Of a DNA stretch of 64,000 nt, positions 15,595 through 44,114 are shown in pieces. Below the pieces are notes generated by a model. It did not search any database. It was not told the DNA's origin and saw only the letters and a program-made list of their open reading frames with translations. The translations under genes were made by a program, and so were the position numbers. Where the stretch lies: NCBI GenBank assembly GCA_026874595.1, contig CM049309.1, positions 46,980,079 to 47,044,078 on the forward strand, read 5' to 3'. Origin of the DNA: Sipunculus nudus (taxonomy: Eukaryota > Annelida > Sipuncula > Golfingiida > Sipunculidae). Position 1 is the stretch's first letter; the number at the start of each line of letters is the position of its first letter.

Positions 15595-16205
15595 AGCATA
15601 AAGATGGTAAGACACAGAGTAATAAACATATATCTGTTGCACAATTTTTAAGGGAAATTCATATCGTCAAGCAGAATTTATGAATAAGACAATAATGATA
15701 AAAGATTTAAAATGTGAAGGGATAGACCTGCTTTGTTCTCTGCTGACGGGCTCTGGTTCCATAAGAGAAACAGAATATGTTGGGGAAACCTTGGCATTTA
15801 TTCCCATTTCAAGAATACTACAGTCATTTTACTGTGGTGGCAAGAGGTGGTGATAATTATTATAACCCCATCATAACATTACATTAAGATCATCCCCTAG
15901 TGTATACTAATAGATGAAATATCATACATTTCTAGGTACAAAACCTGAAAAAAATGTATGATGTATCTCTACTCACAGGTGCAAATGGGTAGTTCTTAAT
16001 CAATGTATCTGAGCAGACTGAATTTGAATATGGTTTTTGTAAAGACCTGGGACTAAATAATTGAATTATTTGTTAGAGGTAATGTTTGTGTTTTTCTTGG
16101 TCTATTTGACCCTAAGTCTGAATTTTGTGTTGCTTACTGGTAAGCAATTCTGTCCATGTAGCAAATATAAATCGAAGTTAAAAATAATTAATTTAATAAG
16201 GTTTT

Positions 16206-16385
16206 ATTAACAAATAAGATCTTTCAAGAAGCCAAAGGTATTGGATCCCTTTTAACGCTATATTACACACAGCCAATCATTCTCTCTCTCTCATTATTAA
16301 CAAATAAGATCTTTCAAGAAGCCAAAGGTATTGGATCCCTTTTAACGCTATATTACACACTGCCAATCATTCTCTCTCTTCATTC
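16206..16385 (+). repeat. Tandem duplication of a 90-bp segment at the satellite edge
   Basis: A segment running from AACAAATAAGATCTTTCAAG through GGTATTGGATCCCTTTTAAC to CCAATCATTCTCTCTC occurs twice in a row, with TTTAACGCTA at 16251 and 16341 (90 bp apart). Divergence is very low, so the duplication is recent. It joins unique sequence to the satellite. Confidence 0.9.
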
Positions 16386-19300
16386 CACATGGTTCTCTAT
16401 CCTCCCTCTTTATTAATAAGTTCTTCCTCTCTCACTGCCAGAATGTTCATCATTCTGATTCTTCCTCTTTATTCCTCTACCCTTCCACATGGTTAATCAT
16501 TCTCCCTCTTCATTTATAAGTTCATTCTCTCTCACTGTTGGAATGTTCATCATTCTGATTCTCCCTCTTTATCACACACACTTTTTCATCCTTTTTCTAT
16601 TATCTCTTCACCATTTCATCATTTTCTTTCTGTGTTCATTATTCCTTCTCTTCATTCTCACTGTTCATCACCCTCCCTTCCCTTCTACAATTTTCATTGT
16701 TCCAGGGCTATTAACTTCTGAAATGTTAATCAATGTCATTCTTCCCTGCATTCTGCGCTGTTCACCATTTTACCTCTTTTCTTACATACTGTTAATTGTT
16801 CTCCTTCCTCCCTTCTGTATTGTTTCTTTTAACGCTATATTACACACTGCCAATCATTCTCTCTCTTCATTCCACATGGTTCTCTATCCTCCCTCTTTAT
16901 TAATAAGTTCTTCCTCTCTCACTGCCAGAATGTTCATCATTCTGATTCTTCCTCTTTATTCCTCTTCCCTTCCACATGGTTAATCATTCTCCCTCTTCAT
17001 TTATCAGTTCATCCTCTCTCACTGCCAGAATGTTCAGCATTCTGATTCTTCCTCTTTATCCCTCTTCCCTTCCACATGGTTAATCATTCTCCCTCTTCAT
17101 TTATAAGTTCATCCTCTCTCACTGCCAGAATGTTCATCATTCTGATTCTCCCTCTTTATTCCTCTTCCCTTCCACATGGTTAATCATTCTCCCTCTTCAT
17201 TTATAAGTTTATCCTCTCTCACTGCCAGAATGTTCAGCATTCTGATTCTTCCTCTTTATTCCTCTTCCCTTCCACATGGTTAATCATTCTCCCTCTTCAT
17301 TTATAAGTTTATCCTCTCTCACTGCCAGAATGTTCATCATTCTGATTCTCCCTCTTTATCACACACACTATTTCATCCTTTTTCTATTATCTCTTCACCA
17401 TTTCATCATTTTCTTTCAGTGTTCATTATTCCTTCTCTTCATTCTCACTGTTCATCACCCTCCCTTCCATTCTACAATTTTCATTGTTCCTGGGCTATTA
17501 ATTTCTGCAATGTTAATCAATGTCATTCTTCCCTGCATTCTACGCTGTTCACCATTTAACCTCTTTTCTTACATATTGTAAATTGTTCTCCTTCCTCCCT
17601 TCTGTATTGTTCCTTTTAACGCTGTATTACACACTGTCAATCATTCTCTCTCTTCATTCCACATGGTTCTCTATCCTCCCTCTTTATTTATAAGTTTATC
17701 CTCTCTCACTGCCAATATGTTCATCATTCTGATTCTTCCTCTTTATTCCTCTTCCCTTCCACATGGTTAATCATTCTCCCTCTTCATTTATAAGTTCATC
17801 CTCTCTCACTGCCAGAATGTTCATCATTCTGATTCTTCCTCTTTATACCTCTTCCCTTCCACATGGTTAATCATTCTCCCTATTCATTTATAAGTTCATC
17901 CTCTCTCACTGCCAGAATGTTCAGCATTCTGATTTTTCCTCTTTATTCCTCTTCCCTTCCACATGGTTATTCATTCTCCCTCTTCATTTATAAGTTCATT
18001 CTCGCTCACTGTCAGATTGTTCATCATTCTGATTCTCCCTCTTTATCACACACACTATTTCATCCTTTTTCTATTATCTTTTCACCAATTTTCATCATTT
18101 TCTTTCAGTGTTCATTATTCCTTCTCTTCATTCTCACTGTTCATCACCCTCCCTTCCCTTCTACAACTTTCATTGTTCCAGGGCTATTAATTTCTGAAAT
18201 GTTAATCAATGTCATTCTTCCCTGCATTCTGTGCTGTTCACCATTTTACCTCTTTTCTTACATACTGTTAATTGTTCTCCTTCCTCCCTTCTGTATTGTT
18301 CCTTTTAACGCTATATTACACACTGCCAATCATTCTCTCTCTTCATTCCACATGGTTCTCTATCCTCCCTCTTTATTAATAAGTTCTTCCTCTCTCACTG
18401 CCAGAATGTTCATCATTCTGATTCTTCCTCTTTATTCCTCTTCCCTTCCACATGGTTAATCATTCTCCCTCTTCATTTATCAGTTCATCCTCTCTCACTG
18501 CCAGAATGTTCAGCATTCTGATTCTTCCTGTTTATCCCTCTTCCCTTCCACATGGTTAATCATTCTCCCTCTTCATTTATAAGTTCATCCTCTCTCACTG
18601 CCAGAATGTTCATCATTCTGATTCTCCCTCTTTATTCCTCTTCCCTTCCACATGGTTAATCATTCTCCCTCTTCATTTATAAGTTTATCCTCTCTCACTG
18701 CCAGAATGTTCAGCATTCTGATTCTTCCTCTTTATTCCTCTTCCCTTCCACATGGTTATTCATTCTCCCTCTTCATTTATAAGTTCATTCTCTCTCACTG
18801 TCAGATTGTTCATCATTCTGATTCTCCCTCTTTATCACACACACTATTTCATCCTTTTTCTATTATCTTTTCACCAATTTTCATCATTTTCTTTCAGTGT
18901 TCATTATTCCTTCTCTTCATTCTCACTGTTCATCACCCTCCCTTCCCTTCTACAACTTTCATTGTTCCAGGGCTATTAATTTCTGCAGTGTTAATCAATG
19001 TCATTCTTCCCTGCATTCTACGCTGTTCATCATTCTACCTCTTTTCTTACATATTGTTAATTGTTCTCCTCCCTCCCTTCCGTATTGTTCCTTTTAACGC
19101 TATATTACACACTGTCAATCATTCTCTCTCTACACTCCACATGGTTCTCTATCCTCCCTCTTCATTCAACTATGTACATCATTCTCCCTCTTTTCATTCA
19201 ATACTTTTCATCATTTCTCCTTTTCTCTTCCCCAGGTCATCAGAAACTTTCTTTCCTTCTACACTGATTGTCTCTCTGTCTTCATCCCACAGTGTTCATC

Positions 19301-20745
19301 AATCTCCCTTTTGTTTAACACATTGTTAATCATTACCTTTTTACTACATTGTTAATTTTCTCCCTCTTCCCTTCAACCAAACCAGTCATTCACCATCCTC
19401 TTGCAAGTCATTTATCTTCCTCATGCTTCACTTTTCAGCATTCTCCCACTTCTTTTTGACATGTTCATCATTCTCCCTTGTTTTCCACACAGTTAATATT
19501 TAATACTCCTTCTTCCCCTCTACATTGTTAATTTTCTCCCTCTTCCCCAACCTTGTTAGTCATTCACCTTCCTCATGCTGCACTATTCATCATTTTCCTT
19601 ATTTTTGTTCCACACTGTTAATCATTTCCAATTCTACTACATCATTAAATTTCTCCCTCTTCTCATCAATCTTGCTAGATATTCACCTTCCCCTGCTGCA
19701 CTATTCATCTTTTTCGGACTTCTTTTCAAAATGTTTGTCATTCTCCCTGATGTTTTCCACACTGTTGATATCATCCTTTTTCCTTTCTACATTGTTAATT
19801 TTTTACCTCTTGCCTAACCCTAGTTTGTCATTCACCTTCCTCATGCTGCATTCTTCATCATTTTCCTTTCATTGTTCCATATTGTTCATCATTTCTCCTT
19901 CTACTGCACTGTGAATTTTCTCCCACATACCATCAAACTTGCTTGTCGTTCACCTTCTAATGCTGCACTATTCATTATTCTTTAACTTCATTTTCACATG
20001 TTCATCATTATCCCTGTTGATTTCCACACTATTGATAATTCCCCTTCTCCCTTCTATATTGTTCTTGTTCTCCCTCGTCCCAAACCAAGTCATTCACCTT
20101 CCTCTTGCTGCACTTGTAATCATTCTCCCTCTTTTTGTTACACATTGTTCATCATTTTCTCTTTTGTCTTCCAAAGGCCATCATTCATTTTTATCCCTTC
20201 CAAAATGTTCATCACATTCTCTAACTGTTTATCAACCTCCTCCTTCCCTTCCACACTAATCTTCACTCCATCTTCATCCCACATTGTTCAGCATTCCCCT
20301 CTTCTATTCTGGCCATTGTTAATTATTCCCTTTCTTCACTTCTACATTCATTTTTTCTGCCCGTCTCAATGGTTGAACATCATTCTTCCTATCAACACTG
20401 TTCATCATTTTCCTCCTTCTCTTCCATACTGTTCACCATTCTTTTCCATAATAAAGGAATCTTCATAATTTTCCTTTTCTTTTCACACAATGTTCATCAT
20501 CCTCCTTCCAAAATGTTCAACGTCAATCACCATTCTACATTTTTCTTTTCCACATTTCATCATCCCACACTGTTCATCATTCCTTATTTTTGCTTCCATT
20601 GTTCGTCATTCTCCTTTTTACACAGTTCATCACTTCCCTGCTCATTTCACTCTGTCTCCCATTTACATTTTTCTCATTCTCTCTTCTCCCTCCTACATTG
20701 TTTTAACAACATTTCCCCTCAACTATTCCTCATTTTATGTAAAGT
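16250..20745. repeat. Pyrimidine-strand satellite, 100-bp monomers with higher-order repeats
   Basis: About 4.5 kb of the plus strand is almost entirely C/T-rich with interspersed CAT and AAT. The monomer is 100 bp: TAATCATTCT recurs at 16981, 17081, 17181 and 17281, and at 17768 and 17868. A marker block, TTTAACGCT, recurs at 16341, 16828, 17615, 18304 and 19093 (spacing 487, 787, 689, 789). This is a higher-order unit varying by whole 100-bp monomers. From about 19,150 to 20,745 the monomers are strongly diverged but keep TTCATCATTCTCCCT-like words. Long open frames exist only because G is scarce and stop codons are rare; they are not genes. Confidence 0.92.
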
Positions 20746-41478: not shown

Positions 41479-41758
41479 AAGTACTACTAGAGGGCTCAGG
41501 ATTGCTATGCACAGTCCCAGATTTAATCCAAAATCCTAACCTGTAGTTTAGGAAATTTACCAAATACTTAGGGTACTATTGGGATATCCCTGCTTAACAT
41601 CTGAGGAACTGACATTGATTGAACCAGAGACTTTCAGCTCCAACTTCCATTGCTTTTACTAGGGCTGTCTCAATTTGATCACCAGTGCATTGACACCTAA
41701 TACTAAGTCCAATAATGTATGGCTATTATCCGATGTCTCTGTATATTTATATATTGAC

Positions 41759-43928
41759 TATGTCAGAGACGAGATTGAAATCCAGGCGGATTTTAAATTC
41801 GCCTAGACGAGATTGCGATTGTGATCTCGCCTAGGTGAGATTGCAATTGTGATCTCGGCTAGACAGATTTTAAACTTGCCTAGACCAGATCACAATCGCA
41901 ATCTCGCCTAGGCGAGATTAAAATCCATGATGGAGAAGGCTAGGATTTTAATCTCGCCTAGGCGAGTTTAAAATCTGTCTGGTGTCATCCAGGCGAGTTT
42001 AAAATCTGTCTGATATTACTTAGGCGAGTTTAAAATCTGCCTGGGCGAGATTAAAATAGTGATCTGATCTAATTTCCTAATATATTAAGCATTGTAATTG
42101 ACATATGAAAGATGTTTTCAGTCGGATTTTCAATATTTTAACACTGAATGGTTATATATAGTTAAAAGGTTATATATTTATTAATATTTACAGAATATTA
42201 TAGTATTAATGTAATAATTAACTTTTTTACAGTAATGTAATAATTATTCATGTGATAATTAACATTTATTTTGGAAACAGAATGATGAAATAGATATTTG
42301 ATTATTATTTGAACCTTTGATGTGTTTCATGTGGTCTACAGCATCCCTATCATACCAATTATTTGCTAAACATTAATTAATCTTTATTTTTTTCTCCAGT
42401 TTTCTTTACAACCTTAGGATTGTAAATATCACTAATAATTTTTACAAAAAAATAATTTGTAATTGTATTTAAATATATGGCAATTAGAGAGTAACAAGAG
42501 GTATTTTGAAGCACACTTATGAGATATAATGAAGAGCAAATCTGGGGGAAAAAGTCATCCAGTTGCATACTGAATCAATCATAGATAGATAGATAGACAG
42601 ATAGATAGATTAGTTTAGATAGCTATTACTTCACTATTTAATGAGTATATTACACATTAACATAAACAATCATCCTATTTGATAATTCTTACAGGACAAA
42701 CAGAACAAATAAGTTGGTTGATCTAGTTCAAATGTTTCTTTTCACCCAGGTATTCAACACTCAACAGTCAAAACATGTACACTTATGGTACAAAATATGC
42801 AGGGTATCAGTATTTATGATGGACTTTGATACACCATCCTTTTTTCAGGTAATTTAACATCATATGAGAAAAGGTAAAAGTTGATACACAGATGTATGCA
42901 AGTGAATATTTCTTTGTCTTATTTAGTCTTTTCTTATAATGTATATAATATTCTTCTGATCTTTTTTTTTAATGTTTTGTGAGGCATTTTGTGAAGCTTC
43001 AATATTTATGTAGACTGTGTTACAATATAACTGCCTTTTTTTGGACAGTATTATATTGTATCAGAAAATATATCTAGATTCATAGAGTAATAGATCATTT
43101 ATGCATGTGAACATGCATTGAATTATATTGATAAAAAATAAATGAGCTATGTTCCTTTTGTCTTTTTAAAATACTACATTACTAATACCAGTTTCCCTTC
43201 AAATTAATATTGACAACAAAATTATTATGTAAATAATCAGCAGAAGCCCACATCATATATCATTTGAATATGCCATATACAATACCAATGTAAGTTTCTT
43301 ATTACACAGTTTATAAATAAATATATAAAATAAAAAAATTAATGTTAATTATTACATAAATATTATAATATTCTGTAAATAATATTAAATATATTTTACT
43401 TGTGAACTATACATAACCATATTAATAAAAAATATATAATATAAAATATTCCATTTCCAAAATTAATTTTAATTATTTAATTAATAATATAATCTGTAAA
43501 TATTAATAAATATATTACTTGTGAACTATACGTAACCATTCAGTGTTAAAATATTGAAAATCTGACTGAAAACATCTTTCATAAGTCAATTACAATGCAT
43601 AATTTATTGGGAAATTAGATCAGATCACTATTTTAATCTCGCCTAGGCAGATTTTAAACTCGCCCAAGTGATATCAGGCAGATTTTAAACTCGCCTGGAT
43701 GACACCAGACAGATTTTAAACTCGCCTAGGAGAGATTAAAATCCTGGCCTGCTACATGATGGATTTTAATCTCGCCTAGGCGAGATTGCGATTGTGATCT
43801 CGTCTAGGCAAGTTTAAAATCCGTCTAGCCGAGATCACAATTGCAATCTCGCCTAGGCAAGATCACAATCGCAATCTCGTCTAGGCGAATTTAAAATCCG
43901 CCTGGATTTCAATCTCGTCTCTGACATA
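41759..43928. mobile_element. Mutator-like foldback element with 9-bp target duplication
   Basis: A 2170-bp element flanked by a perfect 9-bp direct repeat, TATATTGAC (41750-41758 and 43929-43937). Terminal inverted repeats of about 440 bp start TATGTCAGAGACGAGATT and end AATCTCGTCTCTGACATA. The outer 300 bp of each arm are made of alternating CTCGCCTAGGCGAG-type palindromes joined by AATTT/AAATC spacers. Arms continue inward as AT-rich paired sequence to about 42.2 and 43.48 kb. Nine-bp duplication and long inverted repeats are the signature of Mutator-like elements. No transposase is visible in the core, which also holds a GATA microsatellite. Confidence 0.85.
42581..42610. repeat. GATA microsatellite
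   Basis: About seven ATAG/GATA units with one GACA interruption, inside the core of the foldback element. Confidence 0.9.
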
Positions 43929-44114
43929 TATATTGACAATATATGACAATGCAACATTTAACTAGCAACCTGCAGCATTTAGTAGTGTAATATTGCAGCA
44001 AGATCAAACCAGTTGAAGGAGCTGTTTCATTATTTATGATTCCTGAAACATTGAGCAAAGGAATGGCAAACTTGAAACATGATTTAACTTCAGAAGCAAA
44101 GAGGAACAATGTTT

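Follow-up and report, generated by a model that had tools for sequence, protein, structure and literature searches.

We believe that the foldback element described here is very probably a non-autonomous transposon of the Ginger2 group. It lies in a window of 64 kb (the whole stretch of DNA that was analysed, G000:C4:46980079-47044078) in a genome of 1.43 Gb. A Ginger2-type transposase, with an H2C2 zinc finger and a DDE core like that of retroviral integrases, would cut at TGTC/GACA, and insertion of the element at ATRTATAYAT sites and in TA runs would duplicate TATA. The published signature of Ginger2 consists of TGTNR ends, a 4-bp duplication and an RTATAY target (PMC2836005; the papers cited here are represented by excerpts). 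The assignment is made because the termini, the duplication (read at one insertion) and the target of this family all match that signature. Two related elements, L114 and L117, combine an H2C2 finger with a DDE core between ends of this kind; the window subfamily itself has no long frame.

The window element and its family

The element is 2.17 kb long, that is 2166 bp for the element proper and 2170 bp when the TA on each side is counted (41759-43928). Its parts are as follows.

41748..41758, plus strand: left copy of the direct repeat TATATATTGAC, of which 41750-41758 is the 9-bp part noted earlier
41761..43926, no strand: element proper, TGTCAGAG...CTCTGACA, from 25 full-span matches and the empty site of another copy
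41761..42060, plus strand: outer left arm, an array of palindrome modules starting 38, 66, 115, 143 and 193 bp from TGTC
42061..42283, plus strand: inner left arm, AT-rich, with an inverted, partly rearranged copy in the right arm
42284..43340, no strand: AT-rich interior, stop-to-stop frames of at most 65 aa
43341..43626, minus strand: inner right arm, AT-rich, part of it duplicated internally (43365-43420 / 43484-43539)
43627..43926, minus strand: outer right arm, an array of palindrome modules, from palindrome matches and self-folding
43927..43937, plus strand: right copy of the direct repeat TATATATTGAC, of which 43929-43937 is the 9-bp part noted earlier

The inverted arms (41759-42215 and 43472-43928) are each 457 nt long and 93% complementary. 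Palindromes like CTCGCCTAGGCGAG, allowing up to 2 mismatches, occur at 9 places in the window, three of them exact, and all lie within the element; 0.01 would be expected from 100 shuffles. Folded on themselves as DNA, the single outer arms give z-scores of -14.9 (41761-42060) and -10.7 (43627-43926) against -0.45 for an interior control. This confirms a foldback structure in the descriptive sense of long, internally repetitive, self-folding arms. The preliminary description was right in seeing an inserted foldback element whose arms are built from repeated palindromes and can each fold on themselves, and right that TATATTGAC stands exactly on both sides (41750-41758 and 43929-43937). The "alternating orientation" it gave to the palindromes does not hold for sequences that have no orientation; the intervening linkers are all that it could describe. 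Four stop-to-stop frames of at least 50 aa overlap the element, and the longest has at most 68 aa.

Elsewhere in the window, positions 16204-20157 are pyrimidine-rich (the two bins of 2 kb that cover 16001-20000 have GC skews of -0.53 and -0.62) and contain tandem repeats whose periods mainly lie near 100 or 200 bp.

The family is a burst of similar copies. The end word TATGTCAGAGACGAG, with up to 1 mismatch, is found at 945 places in the genome against 122 for its reversed control, and many of the first 100 places pair up in +/- orientation at a spacing of 2.1-2.3 kb. A DNA search with the element returned 25 matches spanning base 1 to 2170, the window copy included, among the best 40 of 1114 candidates; because scoring was confined to the best candidates, genome counts of this kind are minimum values. 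Across 21 copies (the window copy and 20 other full-length ones) the mean pairwise identity is 97.2% with gaps ignored, and the two arms within each copy match at 90-97%. Two partial copies stand in tandem, slightly overlapping, at G000:C13:6603737-6607694.

Several candidate relatives were rejected. The longer end pairs L001-L009 are not autonomous copies; they belong to the same family with other inserts or rearrangements, and none of their frames, the longest being 134 aa, is transposase-like. The locus L079/L095 has the tip alone in common, and its 10 kb of sequence hold neither a second end nor a frame longer than 96 aa. A search for other families with the 12-bp tip gave 9 matches against 16 in the reversed control. 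At L081/L090 (G000:C2:30443346) a coding exon is directly preceded by a solo arm, about 385 bp long. That exon has no Pfam match and five other matches, four of which lie on C2 no more than 0.2 Mb away, and we read it as part of a host gene cluster; the later frames there resemble, by eye, what we take to be ARM repeats and a TIR domain.

Target site, duplication and the window junction

The target was read from 33 other paired copies (L001-L033), chosen rather than random: 13 came from paired 15-mers on C1 and C2 and 20 were the best full-length matches. Two of them, L008 and L019, have two candidate left ends each, of which one was taken. A TA lies directly outside the end word at 62 of the 66 ends, and on both sides in 29 of the 33 copies. 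Beyond this outer TA the 66 ends have A at 63, T at 65 and R at 65, and the full ATRTA stands at 57. The inner TA of the RTATAY target is part of the search word. At 30 further ends, mostly without a listed partner, the outer TA is present at 20 and ATRTA at 18; eight of the ten ends without TA are one base off ATRTA and two are more than one base off. Several copies of the family sit in TA runs, and in five such copies the TA repeats, of even length (10-14), are uninformative.

From the flanks alone, duplications of TA and of TATA look the same. The insertion L036, which lies within a high-copy repeat, can be compared with its paralogous empty sites. The occupied site reads GGATG-TATA-TGTC...GACA-TATA-CACATGC, and five of six empty loci read GGATG-TATA-CACATGC; the remaining one, L058, reads GAATG-AATA-CACATGC and differs at two bases. 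It follows that the duplication is TATA and that the element ends at TGTC/GACA. We conclude from this one insertion that the target duplication of the family is 4-bp TATA. The termini TGTCA...TGACA fit the TGTNR...YNACA of Ginger2. The flanks of element copies L035 and L036 match a high-copy repeat (L054-L059) whose units are about 280 bp long.

The junction of the window copy is atypical. Its 9-bp repeat extends to the 11-bp TATATATTGAC, and the junction reads TATATATTGAC-TA / TGTC on the left and GACA / TATATATTGAC on the right, without TATA on the left. A search with the joined window flanks, keeping one copy of the repeat, gave 35 matches. Besides the window locus, three paralogues span the junction (C5:83561686, C16:21987585 and C10:44045443); they are 78-80% alike, and in the alignments each is 2 bp shorter than the one-repeat join. 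A fourth match, at C9:78673200, just reaches the junction. Because the three paralogues run across the join and are each 2 bp shorter, a tandem repeat that existed at the window site before insertion is unlikely, and the direct repeat would then have arisen during or after insertion. It can be argued that it is a true long duplication and that the family makes duplications of both 4 bp and 9-11 bp, which would be compatible with the Ginger2 assignment. The paralogues just described argue for this by making a pre-existing repeat unlikely, and IS481EU offers a precedent with duplications of 4, 15 and 25 bp (PMC10045372, excerpt). We nevertheless think a long duplication unlikely. It is found in one of the 34 copies with both flanks read, templated repair after insertion would account for the repeat equally well, and the paralogues in its support are diverged and judged from alignment rather than letters. 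An atypical stagger, as in IS481EU, or templated repair may be the source of the window repeat.

Transposases and the class of the element

The transposase query was a composed Ginger2/KRBA2-like protein core, and the best 150 of 4169 candidates were scored. The first 24 matches have 52-67% identity; the lower ones fall to about 27-37%, and we take these for Gypsy integrases. Among 22 transposase neighbourhoods (L096-L117), L117 on C17 has the tip ATATA followed by TGTCACAGGCGAAATTAGAATCCAGGCGG as well as palindrome modules, and L114 on C6 has the modules. The elements found are these.

C6, 12960344-12965465: autonomous-type element of 5.1 kb, both ends, flanked by TATA and TATG
C17, 3546928-3551569: autonomous-type element of 4.6 kb, both ends, 5' tip TGTCGCAGG
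C17, second copy: 3' end alone recovered

The recovered ends of all three have TGTC tips adjoining TATA or TATG, with palindrome arms. Splicing of a GT-AG intron in L117 keeps the frame, with the join after the first and before the second catalytic residue as placed by eye. The spliced product of 490 aa scores 38.8 bits for rve (cut-off 32.6) and 27.5 for Integrase_H2C2 (cut-off 25.5), and its first 258 aa find PFV integrase as their best solved-structure match (6.6e-12). For Integrase_H2C2 the cut-off is reached by exon pieces of both L114 and L117, and their unspliced exon 3 alone has no Pfam match; L098, from another family, scores 27.1 for rve, below the cut-off of 32.6. A search with the L117 exon (best 124 of 2825 candidates) found three places at 91-100%, L117 included, and the other 44 listed are at 67% or less. 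All three copies are damaged, L117 by a stop, L114 by frame changes and the third by a stop. One subfamily of the many Ginger2-like transposase genes, with three copies found, is carried by elements whose TGTC tips and palindrome arms are similar to those of the window family.

Other Ginger2-like families have different TGT words beside TATA, L109 at both ends and L122 at one, where TGTCACAG adjoins TATA. Six further transposase neighbourhoods of 1.9 kb each, L122 among them, had no match to the L117 arm, and their arms may lie beyond these pieces. Two of the six match the window element weakly and briefly, L123 over 43 bp and L124 over 20 bp. Among the Ginger2-like genes and neighbourhoods examined, none of the transposases goes with the exact TGTCAGAGACGAG tip.

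Aligned over 82-281 bases, the autonomous arms and those of the window element have 69-83% identity, so the C6 and C17 elements are a sister subfamily and not the window family's own source. Both window arms have palindromes at offsets 38, 66, 115 and 143 (up to 3 mismatches), as do two of the four autonomous arms, the C6 3' arm and the C17 5' arm; the next one is at 193 in the window arms and at 194 in the autonomous ones. The C6 5' and C17 3' arms have only 38 and 66 in common with the window, followed by 117. Within the window family the four offsets are matched in 18-20 of the 21 copies per arm. Between the subfamilies, the 14-bp palindrome cores are identical at 43-44 of 56 positions against 52-55 of 73 for the linkers; the values are 27-30 of 32 for the inner 8 bp and 30-31 of 37 for the tip. 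The cores are hardly better kept than the linkers and the inner 8 bp are better kept, which weakly suggests a function for the palindromes. The best 40 of 917 candidates in a search with the C6 arm include three +/- pairs on C2, 1.7-2.0 kb apart; these arm matches probably mark a second non-autonomous family.

The preliminary description took the element for a Mutator-like (MULE/Phantom) foldback with a 9-bp target duplication. The perfect 9-bp direct repeat of the window copy favors that view, the genome has at least 131 MULE transposase matches (best 150 of 252 candidates), and 9-bp duplications are known from Tm1, a MULE foldback (PMC3169594, excerpt). However, in the 33 other copies the flanks never match over 9 bp, the best agreement being 5 of 9 with TA-run repeats uninformative, the empty site of L036 gives TATA, and the transposase between arms of the same plan is integrase-type. 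The proposed search for further copies and a MULE transposase did find the copies, but by eye no MULE match on C1 or C2 lies inside a pair among the first 100 end places (C1, and C2 to 74.8 Mb). A different duplication in other copies had been named as the observation that would tell against Mutator, and TATA at L036 is such a case; we regard a Mutator origin as extremely improbable. A Tc1/mariner-type element that duplicates TA would suit the flanks alone equally well, and Tc6 is a known foldback with Tc1-like ends. This too is very improbable, since at L036 (one insertion) the empty site is TATA, which makes the gain at the occupied site four bases, the genome search for DDE_3 scored just 22 matches, six of them on small contigs, and again the transposase between similar arms is integrase-type. 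ISL2EU has an AT duplication and GG ends, unlike this family (PMC4482050, excerpt), and Ginger1, with CCGG or CCGT, does not fit (PMC2836005).

The Ginger2 assignment has difficulties of its own: the related arms are only 69-83% identical, the family's own source enzyme was not found, the three transposase copies are damaged, the mostly unpaired ends have the outer TA at 20 of 30, and the window junction is atypical. Ginger2 includes one family from the snail Littorina saxatilis (PMC2836005), and a Ginger2-like transposase accompanies insertion in (AT/TA)n in crab nimaviruses (PMC10871703, excerpt).

About 44 of the MULE matches lie in 607-aa open frames, mostly with the same score, and apparently form a separate young family. 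The small contigs G000:C106-C135 have the strongest DDE_3 and rve matches among those listed (for rve, the best 150 of 4779) and are perhaps bacterial contamination.

Mechanism and known systems

We infer that a Ginger2-type enzyme would move the window family in trans. The repeated palindromes are putative binding sites of a dimeric transposase, by analogy with Galileo, whose arm repeats hold several transposase (THAP) binding sites suggested to give specificity (PMC3688188, excerpt). A bolder idea, which we offer tentatively and with some doubt, is that Ginger2 arms became an ordered array of palindromic dimeric sites (38, 66, 115, 143) in which a short word gains specificity by repetition, and that the foldback form arose independently for the same reason as in Galileo. 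No foldback Ginger2 is reported in the paper listings searched, and an earlier description is possible. The words "foldback" and "palindrom" are both absent from the text of the Ginger paper as represented here (PMC2836005). The integrase-type group would join the transposons with foldback arms. It is important that a transposase subfamily, the non-coding window family and a probable second one have a common arm plan, which makes foldback arms testable as arrays of transposase binding sites. It is also important to realize that naming a superfamily from a single copy's duplication can mislead.

The closest likeness in termini and target is to Ginger2/TDD, which has TGTNR termini, a 4-bp duplication and an AT-rich RTATAY target in common with this family (PMC2836005). 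Its inverted repeats are about 50-180 bp (260 and 297 in TDD-4/5), whereas the arms here are 457 nt of palindrome modules; the related elements here encode the H2C2 finger and DDE core, and the window element itself is non-coding. Galileo, a foldback of the P superfamily, also has long, internally repetitive arms, but it belongs to another transposase superfamily and its repeats are not called palindromes in the abstract (PMC3688188). Tm1, a Mutator/Phantom foldback, resembles this family in its composite inverted repeats and in having both coding and MITE-like members, and differs in its MULE transposase and 9-bp duplication (PMC3169594). The sesarmid nimaviruses have a Ginger2-like enzyme and insert in (AT/TA)n as well, yet they are viral elements of 265-285 kb with 46-bp inverted repeats (PMC10871703).
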